A DNA stretch of 64,000 nt from Burkholderia sp. MS389 (lineage in GTDB: Bacteria > Pseudomonadota > Gammaproteobacteria > Burkholderiales > Burkholderiaceae), in contig NZ_CP045995.1 of the NCBI RefSeq assembly GCF_016899425.1, positions 2,232,001-2,296,000 on the forward strand, in the 5' to 3' direction. Shown here one piece after another: positions 26,737 to 36,551 of this stretch. The position numbers were made by a program, and so were the translations under genes. The notes beneath the pieces were generated by a model. The model ran no database searches. It was given only the letters and a program-made list of their open reading frames with translations, and was not told where the DNA came from. Position 1 is the stretch's first letter. Every line of letters begins with the position of its first letter.

Positions 26737-27117
26737 TTATTTGTGAGCGTGCATCGTCGTTTCGGGTGCAGCCGCGGTGTCGGGTATCGCATCGGCCAGC
26801 ACATCGCGCGCCTTCAGCCACAGCCCGAATTCGCGCATCACGTCGACCACCGGCCGCAGCCGGTCGCCGTCGGCGGTGAGATCGTACTCGACGCGCACCG
26901 GCACTTCCGGATAGACGGTGCGTCGCACGAGCCCCGCGTCTTCCAGCGCGCGCAGGTCGAGCGTCAGCATGCGCTGCGAGATGCCCGGCATGTCGCGCCG
27001 CAGGTCGCTGAAGCGGCGCGGCCCGTCGAGCAGATACGACACCAGCAGCAGCCGCCAGCGGCCGCCGAGCAGGCGCATCGCTTCTTCAACGGAACATCCT
27101 GTCGCACTCGTTTTCAT
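26737..27117 (-). CDS. HxlR family transcriptional regulator
   Basis: 126 residues. The HxlR winged-helix domain covers residues 7-100: CSVEEAMRLLGGRWRLLLVS, DGPRRFSDLRRDMPGISQRM, LDLRALEDAGLVRRTVYPEV and RVEYDLTADGDRL. The N-terminal Cys8 is placed as in redox- or quinone-sensing HxlR proteins (HypR, QorR). ATG 27117 has AGGA upstream. It is divergent from a glutathione transferase gene, and a palindrome at 27144-27162 in between is a likely operator. A sensor of electrophiles controlling the transferase is a reasonable inference. Confidence 0.9.
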   Translation of the reverse strand: MKTSATGCSVEEAMRLLGGRWRLLLVSYLLDGPRRFSDLRRDMPGISQRMLTLDLRALEDAGLVRRTVYPEVPVRVEYDLTADGDRLRPVVDVMREFGLWLKARDVLADAIPDTAAAPETTMHAHK

Positions 27118-27143
27118 CGAGCTGGTTCCTGGTCGGTAAATTT

Positions 27144-27162
27144 TTTGTGACTACGGCACAAA
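27144..27162. promoter_or_regulatory. TTTGTG-N7-CACAAA palindrome, candidate HxlR operator
   Basis: TTTGTG (27144-27149) and CACAAA (27157-27162) form a perfect six-base inverted repeat with a seven-base spacer in the 136-bp divergent region. It begins 27 bp before the HxlR start. Its size and position suit a dimeric winged-helix repressor. Confidence 0.55.
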
Positions 27163-27253
27163 CGACTGCCGTCTTCTCAGCGCTGCGCCGATGCGAGATA
27201 TTAGCGCCCGCGTCGCGGCGAATCGATACCTGGACAACCCACGAAGGACACGC

Positions 27254-27886
27254 ATGAAGCTCTATCACGCTCCCGGCAGCTGTTCGCAGGCGATCTGCAT
27301 CGTACTGCGCGAAGGCGGATTCGACGCGGAGATCGTCAAGGTCGACGCGCGCAAGCATGTCGTCGATGGCGGCCGCGATTACTACGACGTGACCGAACTC
27401 GGCTACGTGCCGCTGCTCGAACTCGACGACGGCACGATGCTGCGCGAAGGGCCGGTGATCGCCCAGTATCTCGCGGACCAGCGCCCGGAAGCCGCGCTTG
27501 CGCCCGCTTACGGCACACTCGCGCGCTACCGGCTGATGGAATGGCTGAACTTTCTCGGCACCGAGATCCACAAGGGCTTCATCCCGCTGTTGTATGCGGT
27601 GCAGGCGGGGAAGTACGTCGAGCCCGTGCGGCAGAAGCTCGATGGCCGCTTCGCGTGGATCGACCGCCAGCTCGACGGCAGGACGTTCGTCACCGGCGAC
27701 ACGTTCACCGTCGCCGATGCGTACCTGTTCGCGCTGACCGGCTGGGGCAAGGCCGACTGGATGCGCTCGGTGTACAACGCGGAAATCGACCTGAGCCGGC
27801 ATGCGCATCTGCGTGCGTGGTACGAGCGGGTGCGCGCGCGGCCGGCGGTGCAGGCCGTGCTGGCGGCGGACAACCTGCTGCGATGA
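27254..27886 (+). CDS. Glutathione S-transferase family protein
   Basis: 210 residues. The N-terminal thioredoxin-like domain (1-80) reads MKLYHAPGSCSQAICIVLRE, with SxA/S10 typical of beta-class GSTs and the cis-Pro in YVPLLEL, then the glutathione-contacting EGPVIAQYLAD. The C-terminal helical domain ends with FTVADAYLFALTGWGK. This is the bacterial beta-class GstA-like type, cytosolic, conjugating or reducing electrophiles. Divergent from an HxlR regulator. Confidence 0.9.
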   Translation: MKLYHAPGSCSQAICIVLREGGFDAEIVKVDARKHVVDGGRDYYDVTELGYVPLLELDDGTMLREGPVIAQYLADQRPEAALAPAYGTLARYRLMEWLNFLGTEIHKGFIPLLYAVQAGKYVEPVRQKLDGRFAWIDRQLDGRTFVTGDTFTVADAYLFALTGWGKADWMRSVYNAEIDLSRHAHLRAWYERVRARPAVQAVLAADNLLR

Positions 27887-27933
27887 CGCGCGACGGCCGT
27901 GGCGACGCAGCGCCATGCCGCAACAGCCCGCGC

Positions 27934-27939
27934 TATAAT
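27934..27939 (+). promoter_or_regulatory. TATAAT -10 element just before the copper upstream ORF
   Basis: A perfect TATAAT ends eight bases before the ATG at 27947, so transcription from it would begin at or near the start codon, giving a leaderless or nearly leaderless mRNA. No good -35 is seen 17 bp upstream, suggesting activator dependence. Confidence 0.45.
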
Positions 27940-27946
27940 CGCCGCC

Positions 27947-28333
27947 ATGAAACTGCTTCGGACCTTCATCCTGCTGCTGCTGTGCGCGGTGCTGCCCATC
28001 ACTGGGCTGGCAGCCAGCGGCCTGACCGGCGAATGTCCGATGCAGCAGACGATGTCGATGGAGGCGGACACCGGCATGAAGATGGCCATGTCCGCCGACA
28101 TGCGCGGCTGCGATTCGATGCAGCCGTCATCCGCCGATCACGCGAAGGCCAAAGCCAAGGGCACGGCCTGCAAGGTGACGGCCCAATGCCAGTTCGGCAG
28201 TCTCTACCACCCGGCAGCCCGCGCCGACGTCAGCCGTCCCGCCGCATTCGCCAGCACGATCGTCTTCCACTACACGCAGTCCGTCCCGGCGCGCGACCCG
28301 AGCGGGTTGTGGCGCCCCCCACGCTTCAGCTGA
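27947..28333 (+). CDS. Copper-operon upstream ORF, DUF2946/CutF/CruR-like exported small protein
   Basis: 128 residues. A signal peptide covers residues 1-23 (LLRTFILLLLCAVLPITGLA). A Met/His-containing middle with GECPMQQTMSMEADTGMKMA follows, then C75-x5-C81-x-FGS at 75-85 and a tail ending LWRPPRFS. The protein at 41401 in the second copper operon shares exactly C-x5-C-x-FGS and RPPR. Small exported Cys proteins of this kind with proline-rich ends (CruR in Bordetella, CutF in Rhodobacter) act as nascent-chain copper sensors controlling the next gene's translation. It is the first gene before cusC-B-A and is followed by hairpins at 28371-28424. A simple periplasmic copper-binding protein is the alternative. 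Confidence 0.7.
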   Translation: MKLLRTFILLLLCAVLPITGLAASGLTGECPMQQTMSMEADTGMKMAMSADMRGCDSMQPSSADHAKAKAKGTACKVTAQCQFGSLYHPAARADVSRPAAFASTIVFHYTQSVPARDPSGLWRPPRFS

Positions 28334-28370
28334 TCCCGATTTGACCGGTTCGCCGCGCACGCGGTGAGGT

Positions 28371-28424
28371 TCGTCCTGTGCGCAGGACGGGGAATCCCTT
28401 TGGGTTCCGATTTGGGGTTACACC
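28371..28424 (+). promoter_or_regulatory. Stem-loop leader before cusC with alternative pairings over the ribosome site
   Basis: Hairpin 1: GTCCTG (28373-28378), loop TGCG, CAGGAC (28383-28388), extendable by one or two pairs outward. Hairpin 2: GGAA-T-CCC (28391-28398) with GGGTTCC (28402-28408) and a TTT loop. The same AATCCC (28393-28398) can instead pair with GGGGTT (28414-28419), which holds the only Shine-Dalgarno-like sequence before ATG 28425. The two pairings exclude each other, as expected for a translational switch. Folding was done by eye. Confidence 0.5.
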
Positions 28425-29717
28425 ATGTCATTCGCTTGCCGCACGCCGCGCATGCCGCGTGCATGTCGGCGCGCGCCCGTACCGTGGGCCGCGCTGCTGA
28501 TGGCGGGCGCCGTTCACGCGCAGCAGTCGCCGCTGACGCTGGACGCCGCGCTGCAGTCCGCCACCGATCGTTCCGCGTCGATGCAGGCCGCGCAGGCTTC
28601 CGTGCTCGCGCGTTCCGAAGCGGCCGTCAAGGCCGGCCAGTTGCCGGACCCGATGCTCAAGGCCGGCATCGACAACCTGCCAATCAACGGCGGGCAGCGC
28701 TTCACCGTCGGCCAGGATTTCATGACGATGCGCCGCATCGGCATCGAGCAGGAATGGGTGTCCGGAGACAAGCGGCGGCTGCGTACCGCGCTCGCCGACG
28801 AACAGGTCGGCCGCGAGCGCGCCGGCTATCTCGTGCAACTGGCGGCCGTACGCCGGCAGACCGCGACGGCGTGGCTCGATGCCATCTATGCGAAGCAGGC
28901 GCTCGCGCTTCAGCAGGCGCTGCTCGGTCACATGAACCATGAACTCGACGCGACGCAGGCGTCGTATCGCGGCGCGAAGGCGAGCGCGGCCGATGTCGTC
29001 CAGGCGCGGGCCATGCTCGCGCAGACGCAGGATCAACTGCTGAAGGCGCAGCAGGTCTACCAGACCGCGCTCATTGCGTTGTCGCGCTGGACCGCCGTGC
29101 CCGTCGACGATGTCGCGGGCACGCCGCCCGCACCGGTGTCGTTCGTGTCGTCGTTGCCGCCCGATGAATTGCGGCTGTCGCAGCCGGCGCTCATCACGGC
29201 CGCGGACGATATCGCCGTCGCCGAGGCCGATACGGCCGTCGCGAACAGCGAGCGCAGCCCGAACTGGACGTGGGAAGTCGCGTACCAGCAGCGCGGCGGC
29301 GCGTATTCGAACATGGTGTCCATCGGCGTGACGATCCCGCTGCCGCTCGATCGCAAGAATCGCCAGAACCGCGACGTGGCCGAGAAAGCCGCGCTCGCGA
29401 CGAAGGCGCGCCTGACGTACGAGGACACGCTGCGCCAGGTGCAGGCCGATATCCGCACGCAGTCCGCGACGCTCGCGAGCGGTCGCGCGCGCATCGCGCA
29501 TCTCGGCGACGCGTTGCTACCGGCCGCCGATCAGCGCGTGCAGCTCGCGGCGGCGGCATACCGCGCCGGCACGGGGTCGCTCGCCGACACGTTCGCCGCG
29601 CGGCGTGCACAACTCGACGCGCAGTTGCAGGTGCTCGATCTCAGGCGCGAGGTCTCGCAGACCTGGGCGCAACTCGAATATCAGGTCGTGCCGTCGGCGA
29701 CGGCCGCCGCGCAGTGA
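28425..29717 (+). CDS. cusC: TolC-family outer-membrane component of the Cu/Ag RND efflux system (CusC/CzcC-like)
   Basis: 430 residues with a signal peptide ending AGAVHAQ. Two outer-membrane efflux protein (OEP) repeats follow with the helical DATQASYRGAKASAADVVQA and GVTIPLPLDRKNRQN segments. There is no lipobox Cys, unlike E. coli CusC. It forms the trimeric outer-membrane tunnel with the CusB adaptor and CusA pump encoded directly downstream (11-bp gap to cusB). Translation may be controlled by the leader hairpins at 28371-28424. Confidence 0.88.
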   Translation: MSFACRTPRMPRACRRAPVPWAALLMAGAVHAQQSPLTLDAALQSATDRSASMQAAQASVLARSEAAVKAGQLPDPMLKAGIDNLPINGGQRFTVGQDFMTMRRIGIEQEWVSGDKRRLRTALADEQVGRERAGYLVQLAAVRRQTATAWLDAIYAKQALALQQALLGHMNHELDATQASYRGAKASAADVVQARAMLAQTQDQLLKAQQVYQTALIALSRWTAVPVDDVAGTPPAPVSFVSSLPPDELRLSQPALITAADDIAVAEADTAVANSERSPNWTWEVAYQQRGGAYSNMVSIGVTIPLPLDRKNRQNRDVAEKAALATKARLTYEDTLRQVQADIRTQSATLASGRARIAHLGDALLPAADQRVQLAAAAYRAGTGSLADTFAARRAQLDAQLQVLDLRREVSQTWAQLEYQVVPSATAAAQ

Positions 29718-29728
29718 AGGAGACGCTC

Positions 29729-31252
29729 ATGACAAGGCAATCACTGATGCGTGCGGCGCTGATCGCGTTCGCCGGCGCGGCGCTCGCCGGCGCCGGCTAT
29801 TTCGCGGGCGTTCGCCATGCGACGCGCGGCGCGGCGACGGCCGCCATGCCCGCCGCCGCGCCGTCGGGCGTGCCGGCTCAGCAGGCCTCGCGCAAGGTGC
29901 TGTACTGGCATGACCCGATGGTGCCGAACCAGCACTTCGACAAACCGGGCAAATCGCCGTTCATGGACATGCAGTTGCAGCCCGTCTATGCGGACGAAGG
30001 CGGTGCCGCGGCGGGCATCCGGATCGATCCGGGCCTGCAGCAGAACCTCGGCATTCGCTATGCGACCGTGCGCCGGCAGCAGACGGCGGCCGGCTTCGAC
30101 GCGGTGGGCACCACGCAGTTCGACGAAGCGCGCGCGGCGGTCGTGCAGTCGCGCGTGACGGGCTACATCGATCGTCTGTATGCGCGTGCGCCGATGCAGC
30201 GCATTGCGAAGGGCGCGCCGGTCGCATCGCTGTTCGTGCCCGACTGGCTCGCGCCGCAGGAGGAGTATCTCGCGCTGAAGCGCGGCGGGATGGACGGCAG
30301 CCTGCTCGATGCGGCGCGCGCACGGATGCGGGCGCTATCGATCCCGGACGCGATGATCGCGGCCCTCGATCGCACCGGCCGCGCGCAGACGCACGTCGTG
30401 CTGAGCGCGCCGGAGAGCGGCGTCGTCAGCGAGCTGAACGTGCGCGACGGCGCGATGGTCGCGCCCGGCCAGACACTCGCGAAGATCGCCGGGCTGTCGA
30501 CGCTGTGGCTGATCGTCGAGGTGCCGGAAGCGCTCGCCTTGAACGTGCAGCCGGGGATGTCGGTCGACGCGACGTTCGCCGTCGATCCGGCCCGGCATTT
30601 CAGCGGCCGCATCCGCGAAGTGCTGCCCGGCATCAGCACGGGCAGCCGTACGTTGCAGGCGCGCGTGGAGATCGACAACGCGTCGCTGAAGCTCACGCCC
30701 GGCATGCTGATGCGCGTGAAGGTCGCCGCGCAGGAGAAGGCGTCGCGCCTGCTCGTGCCGTCCGAGGCGGTAATCGCGACCGGCCGGCGCACGATCGTCA
30801 TCGCGAAGCACGGCGACGGCCGGCTGCAGCCGGTGTCGGTGACGGTCGGCAACGACGTCGGCGGCGACACGGAAGTGCTCGGCGGGCTGAACGAAGGCGA
30901 CACGGTCGTCGCGTCGGGGCAGTTCCTGATCGATTCGGAAGCCAGCCTGAAAAGCGTGCTGCCGCGGCTGGAGCGGGCGGCAGGCACAAGCGCGGCCGCC
31001 TCATCCGCGACGGCAACCGCGCCGGCTTACGAAACCACCGGCAAGGTGGAGAACGTCACGGCCGACGACATCACGTTCTCGCATCAACCGGTGCCGGCGC
31101 TTGGCTGGGGCGCGATGACGATGGCGTTCGGCAAGCCGTCGGCACACGCGTTTCCGGACGTGAAGCCGGGCCAGACCGTGCGTTTCGCGTTCACGCAGAC
31201 CGATGACGGTTACCGACTGACGAAGGTCGAGCCGCAGGGAGGCGAGCGATGA
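29729..31252 (+). CDS. cusB: CusB-like periplasmic adaptor with a C-terminal CusF-like domain
   Basis: 507 residues from ATG 29729 (GAAGGAGA upstream). Order: N-terminal anchor ([19 protein letters not shown]), a heavy-metal-binding motif variant [20 protein letters not shown] with [14 protein letters not shown] near residues 55-90, then the lipoyl/barrel-sandwich and beta-barrel domains ([20 protein letters not shown]). From about residue 435 there is a fused CusF-type OB domain with [20 protein letters not shown] and the metal-binding core WGAMTMAF. In many systems CusF is a separate gene; here one copy is fused and another follows cusA. It overlaps cusA (ATGA). Confidence 0.92.
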
Positions 31253-34200
31253 TCACGCGCATCATTCACTGGTCCGTCCATCACCGGTTTCTGGTGCTGC
31301 TGGCCACCGTGCTGCTCGCGGCATGGGGCGTGCAGTCGCTGCGACAGACGCCGCTCGACGCGTTACCCGACCTGTCGGACACGCAGGTGATCGTGAAGGC
31401 GTCGTATCCGGGCAAGGCGCCGCAGGTCGTCGAGGATCAGGTGACCTATCCGCTGACGACGACGCTGCTCGGCGTGCCGGGCGCGAAAACCGTGCGCGCG
31501 TACTCGTCGTTCGGCGACGCGTTCGTCTACGTGCTGTTCGACGACCGCACCGATCCGTACTGGGCGCGTTCGCGCGTGCTCGAATACCTGAGCCAGGTGC
31601 AGAGCCGCCTGCCGGCGGGCGCGACCGTGTCGCTCGGGCCGGATGCGACCGGCGTCGGCTGGGTATACGAATACGCGCTCGTCGATCGCACCGGTCACCA
31701 CGATGCCGGGCAACTGCGCGCGCTCAACGACTGGTTCCTGAAGTTCGAGCTGAAGGCCGTGCCGGACGTATCGGAAGTGGCGAGCATCGGCGGCATGGTG
31801 CGCCAGTACCAGGTCGTGCTCGATCCGGACAAGCTGCGCGCGTACGGCATCACGCAGGCGACGGTCGCGGAGGCGCTCGGCAAGGCCAACCAGGCCTCCG
31901 GCGGCTCGGTCGTCGAGCTGGCCGAGTCGGAGTACATGGTGCGCTCGTCCGGCTACCTGCGCACGCTCGACGATTTCCGTCACGTCGTGCTGCGCACCGA
32001 CGACACCGGCACGCCGGTCCTGCTCGGCGACGTCGCGCGCATCCAGGTCGGCCCGGCGACGCGGCGCGGGATCGCGGAGCTGAACGGGCAGGGCGAGGTG
32101 ACGGGCGGTGTCGTCGTGATGCGTTCGGGCAAGAACGCGCTGACGACGATCGACGCGGTGAAGGCGAAGCTCGCCAACCTGAAGCGCTCGCTGCCGCCCG
32201 GCGTCGAGATCGTCACGACGTACGACCGCTCGCAGCTGATCGAACGCGCGGTGGACAACCTCAGGGACAAGCTGATCGAGGAATTCGTGATCGTCGGGAT
32301 CGTGTGCGCGGTGTTCCTGTTCCATCTGCGCAGCGCGTTCGTCGCGATCCTGTCGCTGCCGCTCGGCGTGCTGGCGGCGTTCATCGTGATGCGCTACCAG
32401 GGCGTGAACGCGAACCTGATGTCGCTCGGCGGAATCGCGATCGCGATCGGCGCGATGATCGACGCGGCGATCGTGATGATCGAGAACGCGCACAAGCATC
32501 TGGAAGCATACGACCGCGCGCATCCCGGCGAGCCGATCACCACTGCGCGCCGTTGGGAAATCGTCGCGGCGTCGGCCGCGGAGGTCGGGCCGGCACTGTT
32601 CTTCTCGTTGCTGATCATCACGCTGTCGTTCGTTCCGGTGTTTTCGCTGGAAGGGCAGGAGGGCAAGCTGTTCGCGCCGCTCGCGTTCACGAAGACCTAT
32701 ACGATCGCGGCCGCCGCCGGGCTGTCGGTGACGCTGGTGCCGGTGCTGATGGGCTATCTGGTACGCGGCCGCATTCCGCCCGAGCACGCGAACCCGATCA
32801 ACCGCGCGCTGATTCGCCTGTACCGGCCGCTGCTCGAAGCGACCCTGCGGCGCCCGTGGGCCGCGATCGGCGTCGCGGTCGTCGCGCTCGTGCTGACCGC
32901 CGTGCCGTTGTCGCGGCTCGGCAGCGAATTCATGCCGCCGCTCGACGAAGGCGATTTGCTGTACATGCCGACCGCGCTGCCGGGCATCTCGGCGGACAAG
33001 GCGAGCGAGTTGCTGCAGCAGACCGACCGGCTGATCAAGACCGTGCCGGAGGTCGACACCGTGTTCGGCAAGTCGGGCCGCGCCGATACCGCGACCGACC
33101 CGGCGCCGCTCGAGATGTTCGAGACGACGATCCGCTTCAAGCCGCGCAGCGCGTGGCGGCCGGGCATGACGCCGGAGAAGCTCGTCGACGAACTCGACCG
33201 GACGGTGAAGGTGCCGGGCTTGTCGAACGTATGGGTGCCGCCGATCCGCAACCGGCTCGACATGCTGTCCACCGGGATCAAGACGCCGGTCGGCGTGAAG
33301 ATTTCCGGGCCGGACCTGGCGGGGATCGACGCGATCGCGACGCAGGTCGAGGCAGCCGTGAAGCGCGTGCCGGGCGTGACGTCCGCGCTCGCGGAACGGC
33401 TGAACGGCGGCCGCTACATCGACGTCGACATCGACCGGCTCGCCGCCGCGCGTTACGGGCTGTCGGTGGCCGATATCCAGTCGGTCGTGTCGTCGGCGAT
33501 CGGCGGCGAGGACGTCGGCGAAGTGATCGCCGGGCGCGAGCGCTTCCCGATCAACATCCGCTATCCGCGCGAGATCCGCGATTCGCTCGAGAACCTGCGG
33601 CAACTGCCGATCGTCACCGCGCGCGGCGCGCAGATCCGCCTCGGCGACGTCGCGCACGTCGCGATCGCCGACGGGCCGCCGATGATCCGCAGCGAAAACG
33701 CGCGGCTGTCCGGCTACGTGTACGTCGATCTCCGCGGTATCGATCTCAGCACGGCCGTCCGTGCGATGCAGCAGACCGTCGCGCAACAGGTCGCGTTGGC
33801 GCCCGGCTATTCGATCGCGTGGTCGGGTCAGTTCGAGTACCTCGAACGCGCGGCGGCGACGCTCCGCACCGTCGTGCCTGTCACGCTCGTCGTGATCTTC
33901 GTGTTGTTGTTCGTCACGTTCGATTCGGCGGCCGACGCGTTGCTGCTGATGTCGACGGTCCCGTTCGCGCTGGTCGGCGGGTTCTGGCTCGTGTGGGCGC
34001 TCGGCCATGCGGTGTCCGTCGCGACGTCGGTCGGTTTCATCGCACTGGCCGGCGTGGCCGCCGAATTCGGCGTCGTGATGCTGCTGTACCTGAAGGGCGC
34101 GCTGCAGCGCCGGCTCGATGCCGGCGAACCGCTGACCGATGCGTTGCTGCTCGACGCGATTCGCGAAGGCGCGGTGTTGCGCGTGCGGCCGAAGGCGATG

Positions 34201-34455
34201 ACGGTCGCCGTCGTGCTCGCCGGGCTCGTGCCGATCATGATCGGCCACGGCGCCGGCTCCGAAGTCATGCAGCGCATCGCCGCGCCGATGGTCGGCGGCA
34301 TGGTCACGGCGCCGCTCTTGTCGATGTTCGTCATTCCCGCCGCGTGGCTTCTGCTTCAGCGCCGTCGTGCGCGAAGCGCGGGCCGCGCGCGGCATTCCGA
34401 TGCAGTTCCTTCCGGCACGAACGTGCCATCTATCCCAACCGGAGAATCACGTTGA
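31249..34455 (+). CDS. cusA: CusA/CzcA heavy-metal RND efflux pump
   Basis: 1068 residues, the expected RND size, with spans 1, 2-6, 7 and 8-12 and two large periplasmic loops. The HME-RND signature region reads [20 protein letters not shown] with the proton-relay Asp in span 4. The opening [20 protein letters not shown] and porter-domain blocks ([20 protein letters not shown]) match CusA/SilA/CzcA. Context with CusF-type domains indicates monovalent Cu/Ag rather than Zn/Co/Cd. The start overlaps cusB. It exports Cu(I)/Ag(I) from the periplasm or cytoplasm using proton motive force. Confidence 0.95.
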
Positions 34456-34457
34456 AG

Positions 34458-34820
34458 ATGAATCAATTGATCGCTACTGCCACCGCTGTCGTCGCGCTGA
34501 GTGCGTTCGCGGTACCGGCGTTCGCCGCCGGCGAGATGTCGGGCATGGACATGTCCGGCATGAAGATGTCGTCGGACGGTGCGGCGGAATCGAATGCCGC
34601 GCTGACGGACGCCGAAGTGAAGAAGGTCGATGCCGCGAGCGGCAAGATCACGCTGAAGCACGGCGCGCTGGAGAACGTCGGGATGCCGCCGATGACGATG
34701 GCGTTCAAGGCGAAGGACGCGGCGATGCTTGCTCAAGCGCATGCGGGCGACAAGGTCAGGGTGCGGATCGAGAAGGTCGACGGTACGTTGACGATCGTCA
34801 AACTCGTCAAGGGTTCCTGA
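34458..34820 (+). CDS. cusF: CusF-like periplasmic copper-binding protein
   Basis: 120 residues from ATG 34458; the TTG at 34452, overlapping the cusA stop, has better spacing to GGAGA (34441-34445) and would add two residues. The signal peptide ends AVPAFA, followed by a Met-rich linker (GEMSGMDMSGMKMSSD) and an OB-fold CusF domain with KITLKHGALENVGMPPMTMA. The usual CusF tryptophan that caps the metal is absent; His and the Met pair are kept. Its role is to hand Cu(I)/Ag(I) to CusB. Last gene of the operon; followed by a hairpin. Confidence 0.88.
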   Translation: MNQLIATATAVVALSAFAVPAFAAGEMSGMDMSGMKMSSDGAAESNAALTDAEVKKVDAASGKITLKHGALENVGMPPMTMAFKAKDAAMLAQAHAGDKVRVRIEKVDGTLTIVKLVKGS

Positions 34821-36275: not shown

Positions 36276-36551
36276 ATGAGTCATACCGTTCGCGAGAAAC
36301 AGAAGCTGCTGAACCGCGTGCGCCGTATCAAGGGGCAGGTCGAAGCGATCGAGCGCGCGCTGGAGGAAGAGCGCGGCTGCAACGACGTGCTGCAACGGAT
36401 CACGAGCTGCCGCGGCGCGATGAACGGCTTGCTGGCCGTCGTGCTGGAAGACCACATCCGGTCGCATCTCGTCGATGCGGATACGCCCGACGCACACGAA
36501 GGCAGCGCGACCGAGCAGTTGATCGAGGTCGTGCACAGCTATTTCAAGTAA
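36276..36551 (+). CDS. dmeR: DmeR/RcnR-like metal-sensing repressor (CsoR/FrmR family)
   Basis: 91 residues, all-helical DUF156 family. MSHTVREKQKLLNRVRRIKG has His3 near the N terminus as in RcnR. Cys35 in ERGCNDVLQRI, followed by SCRGAMNGLLAVVLEDHIR, provides the family Cys/His metal site. ATG 36276 is preceded by AGGAG. It is followed after 16 bp by a CDF exporter, the known dmeRF arrangement. It represses until Co(II)/Ni(II) binds. Confidence 0.92.
   Translation: MSHTVREKQKLLNRVRRIKGQVEAIERALEEERGCNDVLQRITSCRGAMNGLLAVVLEDHIRSHLVDADTPDAHEGSATEQLIEVVHSYFK

Follow-up and report, generated by a model that had tools for sequence, protein, structure and literature searches.

A conserved upstream ORF and leader RNA before cusC in Burkholderia as a candidate CutF-like translational gate

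The cus operon of Burkholderia sp. MS389 opens with a small gene of its own, and the question is whether this upstream ORF (uORF) only supplies a protein or whether its translation also controls cusC, the next gene. The usual account of how copper RND pumps are regulated is transcription control by two-component systems. A translational gate before cusC, if real, would be a fast layer reading the metal during protein synthesis at the membrane, and it would assign a role to a gene which is often annotated as hypothetical or not annotated at all. The source genome is a 7.75 Mb Burkholderia genome of three contigs. The whole stretch analyzed, 64,000 nt of contig NZ_CP045995.1, is called the window, and coordinates refer to it.

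An initial annotation of the window described an exported first gene of 128 residues with an RPPR motif close to its stop codon, followed by cusCBA, and these three points were confirmed. The ORF encodes 128 AA with C75-x5-C81-Q-FGS and the C-terminus ...GLWRPPRFS, and its N-terminus is, by eye, hydrophobic and of the export type. RPPR is formed by residues 123-126, two residues ahead of the stop. The features of the operon are:

27947..28333, + strand: uORF, 128 AA, exported-type, with a Met-rich middle, C75/C81 and a W122-R-P-P-R end
28313..28324, + strand: codons of Arg123-Pro-Pro-Arg126, a putative arrest motif judged from its conservation (Pro codons 28316-28321)
28425..29717, + strand: cusC-type outer-membrane factor, the presumed target (PF02321, OEP family, E 6.6e-38)
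29729..31252, + strand: cusB-type adaptor, taken from the ORF list
31249..34455, + strand: cusA-type RND pump (TIGR00914, CusA/CzcA family, 1320 bits)
about 34458-34820: CusF-like ORF, taken from the ORF list

The spacer between uORF and cusC is 91 nt in the window and 91-93 nt in 78 of 107 distinct leaders. From this leader set, L071, L072, L073 and L124 were dropped for want of a CusC match, and L022 and L089 for want of a start candidate. A small FrmR/RcnR/RicR-type metal-sensing repressor gene (NCBIfam and Pfam PF02583) lies 3' of the cus operon at 36276-36551 (+).

The upstream gene and its relatives

Judged by its conservation, the uORF is a real gene. The nearest named homologues are found in B. 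anthina, B. arboris and B. cenocepacia. Among 112 distinct proteins, a set which omits the fragment L073 and the window copy, the residues W122, P124, P125, C81, M32, L16, P17, L21 and A22 are invariant, R123 is present in 103, and C75 is absent from one (L121). With L121 set aside, 110 of 111 proteins have a distance of 41 residues from C81 to W122 and the remaining one has 42, and exactly three residues follow Pro-Pro in all 111. The length from Met1 to C81 ranges from 70 to 96 among homologues. In each of 14 distant loci, the Trp lies 38-41 residues C-terminal of one of the last cysteines, and the protein ends two or three residues after the prolines; additional cysteines closer to the C-terminus are present in L175 and L179. 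For the 13 sequences which share the length of the window protein, pN/pS is 0.58 overall, 0.24 for the Cys motif, 0.29 for the C-terminus and 0.77 for the Met-rich middle. The signal-peptide region, residues 1-24 (MKxLRTxxLLLLCAxLPxSGLAASG), is unusually conserved with pN/pS 0.37, where such regions usually drift, and is perhaps part of sensing.

In its geometry, the uORF looks like a nascent-chain sensor. For CruR, 45 residues between CXXC and RAPP are described, and five added residues strongly reduce the copper response (PMC9426467); for CutF, 45 residues from the metal site to the end motif are given (PMC9973294). A Met- and Cys-rich sequence of the exported type would also suit an ordinary exported copper-binding protein, i.e., a chaperone or buffer, in which case hairpins and helix merely lower the yield of cusC compared to the first gene and nothing is sensed; CusD has been described as a copper-binding lipoprotein (PMC10304878). 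This explanation appears rather improbable, since a chaperone would require neither a constant spacing of 41 residues up to an invariant Trp-x-Pro-Pro, itself placed exactly three residues before the stop, nor a leader preserved in several families, and since the Met-rich middle is the least constrained part of the uORF in the 13 sequences.

Relatives of the uORF were found in 42 of 65 genomes of the genus and 100 of 398 of the family (own genome counted in both), as well as in 7 of 369 genomes of the class and 16 of 398 of the phylum. In 131 of 135 loci, with the window counted and some genomes entered twice, the uORF is followed on its own strand by a CusC relative. For the homologues L071, L072 and L124, no CusC match was found in the stretch examined; they may act on other genes or sit in rearranged loci. 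Using tblastn, the uORF was detected on 52 plasmid records, 19 of which are typed conjugative. In the seven plasmid loci inspected, the genes which follow it encode a TolC-family protein and an RND adaptor; six of the annotations call it hypothetical and one omits it.

An arrest uORF of this kind might sense something other than copper, either export status in the manner of SecM or a disulfide between the cysteines. The very conserved signal region, with residues 16, 17, 21 and 22 invariant, and the paired cysteines would fit such a cue. Little probability is given to it, as a copper-type pump lies downstream in the 131 loci counted above and relatives in the CutF-like network are described as sitting mostly ahead of copper genes (PMC9973294).

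By profile matches, the uORF is a distant CopL-family relative of the published CutF-like copper uORFs. The model CopL_fam NF033807 (NCBIfam) matches 31 of 48 uORF homologues at E ≤ 0.01 (best 1.1e-6). The window protein aligns with almost the entire profile but, at 27.2 bits (E 4.8e-6), stays below the curated cut-off of 40 bits. Kinship with DUF2946, which the initial annotation had suggested, was not borne out by profile searches of the window protein and its homologues or by profile-profile comparison. A Pfam search with the window protein gave nothing at E ≤ 10, PF11162 (DUF2946) matched only 1 of 48 homologues (E 0.02), and the comparison with 12 DUF2946 sequences of the genus aligned 12 N-terminal columns (Prob 0.2, E 0.27). 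As a control, four other loci in the same genome exceed the DUF2946 Pfam cut-off. These CruR-type loci are C2:1280452, C2:2810568, C1:1053992 and C2:2316091, the last barely above it (23.7 bits). The CruR motif pattern, CXXC and RAPP about 45 residues apart, does not describe the uORF, in which C-x5-C and WRPP are 41 residues apart; the layout is similar and the motifs are different.

CutF-like genes are defined by a length of < 150 AA, a signal peptide, PP within the last 15 residues and a gene on the same strand within ≤ 1000 nt (PMC9973294). The uORF has 128 AA, PP at 124-125, cusC 91 nt further on and, by eye, a signal peptide. RNA structure over the next Shine-Dalgarno site, a further trait of CutF-like genes, is indicated here by prediction and leader comparison. 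The CutF-like network, as published, contains the labels CopL, CruR, CusD and SilD, and outer-membrane efflux genes are its commonest downstream neighbours (PMC9973294). Thus, the kind of uORF is already known, as CutF-like genes before cusC-type genes have been published as a class; added here are the RNA device, the predicted leaderless start and the fixed Cys-Trp spacing. No stop-codon/Shine-Dalgarno helix before cusC was found in the literature searched, a search with most subscription journals outside its scope.

From a conserved TATAMT box, the uORF looks leaderless. In the window, the box is:

27934..27939, + strand: TATAAT, predicted -10 element of a leaderless transcript, ending 7 nt 5' of the uORF start

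Of 107 distinct leaders, 87 have a box which ends exactly 7 nt ahead of the uORF start and 92 have one at 6-8 nt, although mean identity at positions -60 to -21 is only 30%. None of 64 background gene starts has TATAMT at this distance, and GGAG, GAGG or AGGA precedes the uORF start in just 1 of 107 leaders. TANANT occurs 6-8 nt before the start in 9 of the 13 distant loci (of 14) with assigned starts. Within 27850-28500, a consensus scan detected no -35/-10 pair, and no intrinsic terminator was found. A TA-rich box directly upstream has been reported to mark leaderless transcripts in B. cenocepacia J2315 (PMC4603805).

The leader RNA and the partner of the cusC site

Folding of 28325-28445 yielded three hairpins inside a helix which joins UGAUCCCGA and the letters around UUGGGGUUA. 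The spacer folds locally, as had been annotated, but into three hairpins instead of two and with a long-range helix in addition. The elements, with the share of alignment cells paired, are:

28331..28339, + strand: stop-codon segment UGAUCCCGA, made up of the uORF stop codon plus the six bases after it and forming the 5' strand of the long-range helix
28350..28367, + strand: hairpin 1, 99.2% of cells paired, double changes in 3 of 7 pairs
28372..28389, + strand: hairpin 2, 95.2% of cells paired, double changes in 3 of 7 pairs
28391..28408, + strand: hairpin 3, with AATCCC (28393-28398) in its 5' arm, 94.4% of cells paired, double changes in 3 of 8 pairs
28412..28420, + strand: UUGGGGUUA, 3' strand of the long-range helix, covering the presumed cusC Shine-Dalgarno sequence GGGG (28414-28417; not the canonical GGAGG)

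The significance of this structure derives from the comparison across leaders and not from single-sequence energy, which is unexceptional (z -1.05, 27 of 200 shuffles equally good). For the alignment, 91 leaders (90 distinct rows) were used; 16 of the 107 were excluded, having a spacer outside 86-105 nt or a non-ATG start. Across the 90 distinct leaders, the four-helix structure has 96.6% standard pairs, and 11 of its 29 pairs show at least one double change (77 double-changed cells). These scores were reached by 0 of 500 shuffles, and slid versions of the structure gave 37.5-52.9% pairs. RNAalifold recovered the same four helices from the alignment alone. In our own tree-based null, summed covariation gave p 0.023 for hairpin 1, p 0.002 for hairpin 2 and p 0.21 for hairpin 3 as a whole (best pair 0.009). 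The tree null for pairing gave p ≤ 0.015 for all four helices, but it does not discriminate, because rejected alternatives also have low values (0.040 and 0.019).

No covariance model of Rfam 15 matched 27800-28600 at E ≤ 1. The RNA model of the leader has 45 matches in 41 of 65 genus genomes (59 candidates scored per genome, so that further matches may exist), each adjoining a uORF when coordinates were compared by eye; a match is absent at the uORF copies in G028 and G050 contig 382 and at the fragment in G029. Three loci with spacers called as 181-199 nt (L129, L132, L141) contain an insert of about 90 nt between the stop codon and hairpin 1; by eye, they seem to keep the hairpins and the G-rich string before cusC.

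In the initial annotation, AATCCC was the moving part of a switch, leaving its local partner to pair with GGGGTT before cusC. The letters are indeed present at 28393-28398 and 28414-28419 and the pairing can be drawn, being possible in 91.3% of cells, but shuffles reach the same 91.3%, no pair is altered on both sides and covariation has p 0.89. Instead, AATCCC forms the 5' arm of hairpin 3. Under a cover over the stop-codon segment, the mean probability that letters of hairpin 3 pair with the cusC site is 0.32 over the 91 leaders, but in the covered window hairpin 3 takes just 0.04 of the site. This switch is given next to no credence. Pairing of the stop segment with the 3' arm of hairpin 3 was likewise rejected (76.2% paired, 0 of 90 rows fully paired).

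By the leader comparison, it is the stop-codon segment of the uORF (28331-28339) whose pairing with the cusC site is conserved. This helix is 97.9% paired in the 90 leaders. Within Burkholderiaceae, it is conserved more than covarying, with two double changes (4 of 500 shuffles) and a tree-null covariation p of 0.42. Its strength is not rare in a GC-rich genome, as 10 of 64 background gene pairs have a duplex as strong as that of the window. For the background comparison, those 100 of the 107 leaders were used which have an ATG start and a spacer of up to 130 nt. A shuffle p < 0.05 for the stop/start duplex was obtained for 17 of these 100 Burkholderiaceae leaders vs 7.8% of background pairs, and the mean duplex value is -10.4 in leaders, which are mutually related, vs -7.8 in the background.

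Better support for the stop-codon helix comes from outside Burkholderiaceae, where stop and start regions have changed together. Examples are UGAUUCC/GGAAUCA (L175, L216), UAGUUCCC/GGGAGCUA (L178), GAUUCCUCU/AGAGGAAUC (L202) and UGAUUCCUGU/ACAGGAAUCG (Pseudomonas plasmid L215). Of 14 distant cus-type loci, eight have shuffle p < 0.05 (Fisher 1.6e-10), five of these eight being Pseudomonas plasmid loci of few types; the starts of L174, L175, L179, L202 and L219 were set by hand. For Burkholderiaceae representatives, 3 of 10 have p < 0.05. Across other CopL-type loci, complementarity at p < 0.05 was found in just 1 of 16 (L182, p 0.003; Fisher 0.055). The counts of this comparison retain L107 (start wrong, a far GTG) and L205 and L210 (starts doubtful). 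In L182, the CopL-type stop segment ACUUCCUUUC is complementary without mismatch, over 10 bp, to GAAAGGAAGU, which covers the Shine-Dalgarno site of the next gene; this gene was read as copper-oxidase type from its Tat-like start.

A proposed gate at the end of the uORF

The reading we lean towards, with a modest degree of confidence, is that a CutF-like nascent-chain uORF gates cusC translation and that a paused ribosome frees the cusC site. The nascent-chain uORF with a leader, as originally proposed, keeps the fixed Cys-Pro spacing, the invariant end and the conserved structure, and loses the DUF2946 kinship and the AATCCC switch. The transcript would be leaderless and start at or beside the uORF ATG, as the box suggests. 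After the ribosome ends the uORF and departs, 28331-28339 would pair with 28412-28420, closing a three-hairpin junction which the comparison supports, and the closed junction would silence cusC. The cysteines, which at about 41 residues from Trp-Arg-Pro-Pro would have just left the ribosome or be within the export channel, would bind a metal, most likely Cu(I). The ribosome would pause at the uORF end, cover the stop-codon segment and expose the cusC site. In the off state, untranslated cusC might additionally allow Rho to terminate transcription. That the signal is copper, and that copper turns cusC on, is what we infer from the operon content and from CutF.

The thermodynamics of a ribosome-opened site are suggestive only. 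For RNA ending just past the cusC start codon, the site has a predicted openness of 0.014, and of 0.468 under a cover of the uORF end up to stop+13; with this cover, a rise of > 0.2 is predicted in 87 of 91 leaders vs 9 of 91 for a control mask. Cover to stop+2, the geometry of a Pro-Pro stall, yields an openness of 0.074. With 21 nt of cusC included, the effect is weaker, the openness changing from 0.064 to 0.296 (52 of 91 leaders vs 11 of 91 in the control), and for the window it is small, from 0.277 to 0.387, and matched by the control with 0.388. With 30 nt of cusC at 30°C and 100 leaders, the values are 0.065 and 0.256, with 0.175 in the control.

The usual toeprint distance is 15-16 nt, and by this rule a ribosome stalled at Pro-Pro, its P and A sites occupied by 28316-28321, would extend to about 28331-28332, i.e., to the first bases of the stop codon. 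Because such a stall would reach no further and the stop+2 cover opens little, folding speaks more for a pause at or close to the stop codon than for one at the Pro-Pro bond; alternatively, the ribosome edge would have to melt the adjacent helix. For the CruR stall, two Pro codons in the ribosomal P and A sites are reported (PMC12992588).

A bolder version, which we regard as possible but doubtful, makes the stop codon itself the switch. The metal-bound chain would block termination and the ribosome would be held with the stop codon in the A site, not at the Pro-Pro bond. In TnaC, the ribosome is held at the stop codon with tryptophan. Only a pause at the stop codon would uncover the cusC site, since this codon is built into the sequestering helix. 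The helix, re-made in other letters (UAA/UUA, UGA/UCA, UAG/CUA), would be a recurring and often leaderless device of copper efflux in Proteobacteria, and would explain CusD and SilD.

Control through Rho would place the regulation at transcription. A C-rich, G-poor stretch at 28205-28282 (37 C and 17 G in 78 nt) ranks in the top 0.2% of windows within 27001-30000, and C-over-G bubbles are larger in uORFs than in the first 384 nt of cusC (mean 15.9 vs 11.1). CruR is reported to act through Rho (PMC9426467), and the difference between cusD and cusC in C. metallidurans is described as one of RNA level (PMC10304878, PMC7563307). However, Rho leaves the conserved pairing over the cusC start region unexplained, and the CruR spacer is long with 162 nt, whereas spacers here are mostly 91-93 nt; this explanation is considered unlikely. 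The favoured translational gate, if it operates, would make the uORF a compact model of a metal-bound nascent chain altering ribosome behaviour, and it predicts the exact codon of the ribosome's pause and the exact bases required to pair.

Comparison with known systems

CzcI of Cupriavidus metallidurans is, like the uORF, a small gene before an RND pump operon, suggested as a metal-sensing regulator (PMC9973294). By description, it differs in its C-terminal proline motif, which is said to be absent in the passages on CzcI in PMC9973294.

CopL of Xanthomonas/Stenotrophomonas is linked to the uORF through the NF033807 matches to its homologues and is reported to act in cis only (PMC9973294). The uORF differs in scoring below the curated cut-off and in its Trp-Arg-Pro-Pro end; stop/Shine-Dalgarno complementarity is clear in only one of the 16 other CopL-type loci.

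CruR of Bordetella pertussis shares with the uORF a Cys motif and a proline end motif at fixed spacing, and the first position in a copper operon (PMC9426467). CruR belongs to DUF2946, to which no similarity of the uORF was found; it lowers expression with copper via Rho and has the 162-nt spacer (PMC9426467). The WRPP of the uORF also differs from the RAPP or RGPP of arrest peptides.

CutF of Rhodobacter capsulatus (cutFOG) is likewise described as an exported protein with cysteines and a proline-rich end, encoded at the head of a copper operon, with structure over the next Shine-Dalgarno sequence and about 45 residues from metal site to end motif (PMC9973294). The uORF is set apart by description: it ends in Trp-Arg-Pro-Pro with exactly three residues to the stop, targets cusCBA and has a predicted leaderless start. 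Its leader of about 91 nt forms three hairpins and the stop-codon helix, whereas a stem-loop in a 40-bp spacer is reported for CutF (PMC8456105).

CusD and SilD of Cupriavidus metallidurans CH34 are, like the uORF, small exported-type Cys proteins directly before a TolC-family gene:

L221:10024-10419: SilD
L226:2001-2390: CusD

The cusD stop region is complementary to the region of the cusC start (E -17.5, shuffle p 0.001) when the start preceded by GGAGG is taken; this start was chosen among three candidates, of which the other two give p 0.21 and 0.48. The SilD stop region complements the next start region (-14.9, p 0.023). CusD contains RAPP, and the proline motif lies further from the stop than in the uORF; no BLASTP similarity was found between SilD and the uORF. 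CopRS has been suggested as regulator and CusD read as a copper-binding lipoprotein (PMC10304878). For silDCBA, no change with copper is reported (PMC7563307). Judging from their stop/start complementarity, CusD and SilD may be arrest uORFs instead of chaperones. Without metal, only cusD is reported to be expressed in C. metallidurans (PMC10304878), and within cusDCBAF cusD is the one gene reported not to rise with copper (PMC7563307). A first gene expressed at all times, with control exerted between cusD and cusC, would be expected to give this pattern.
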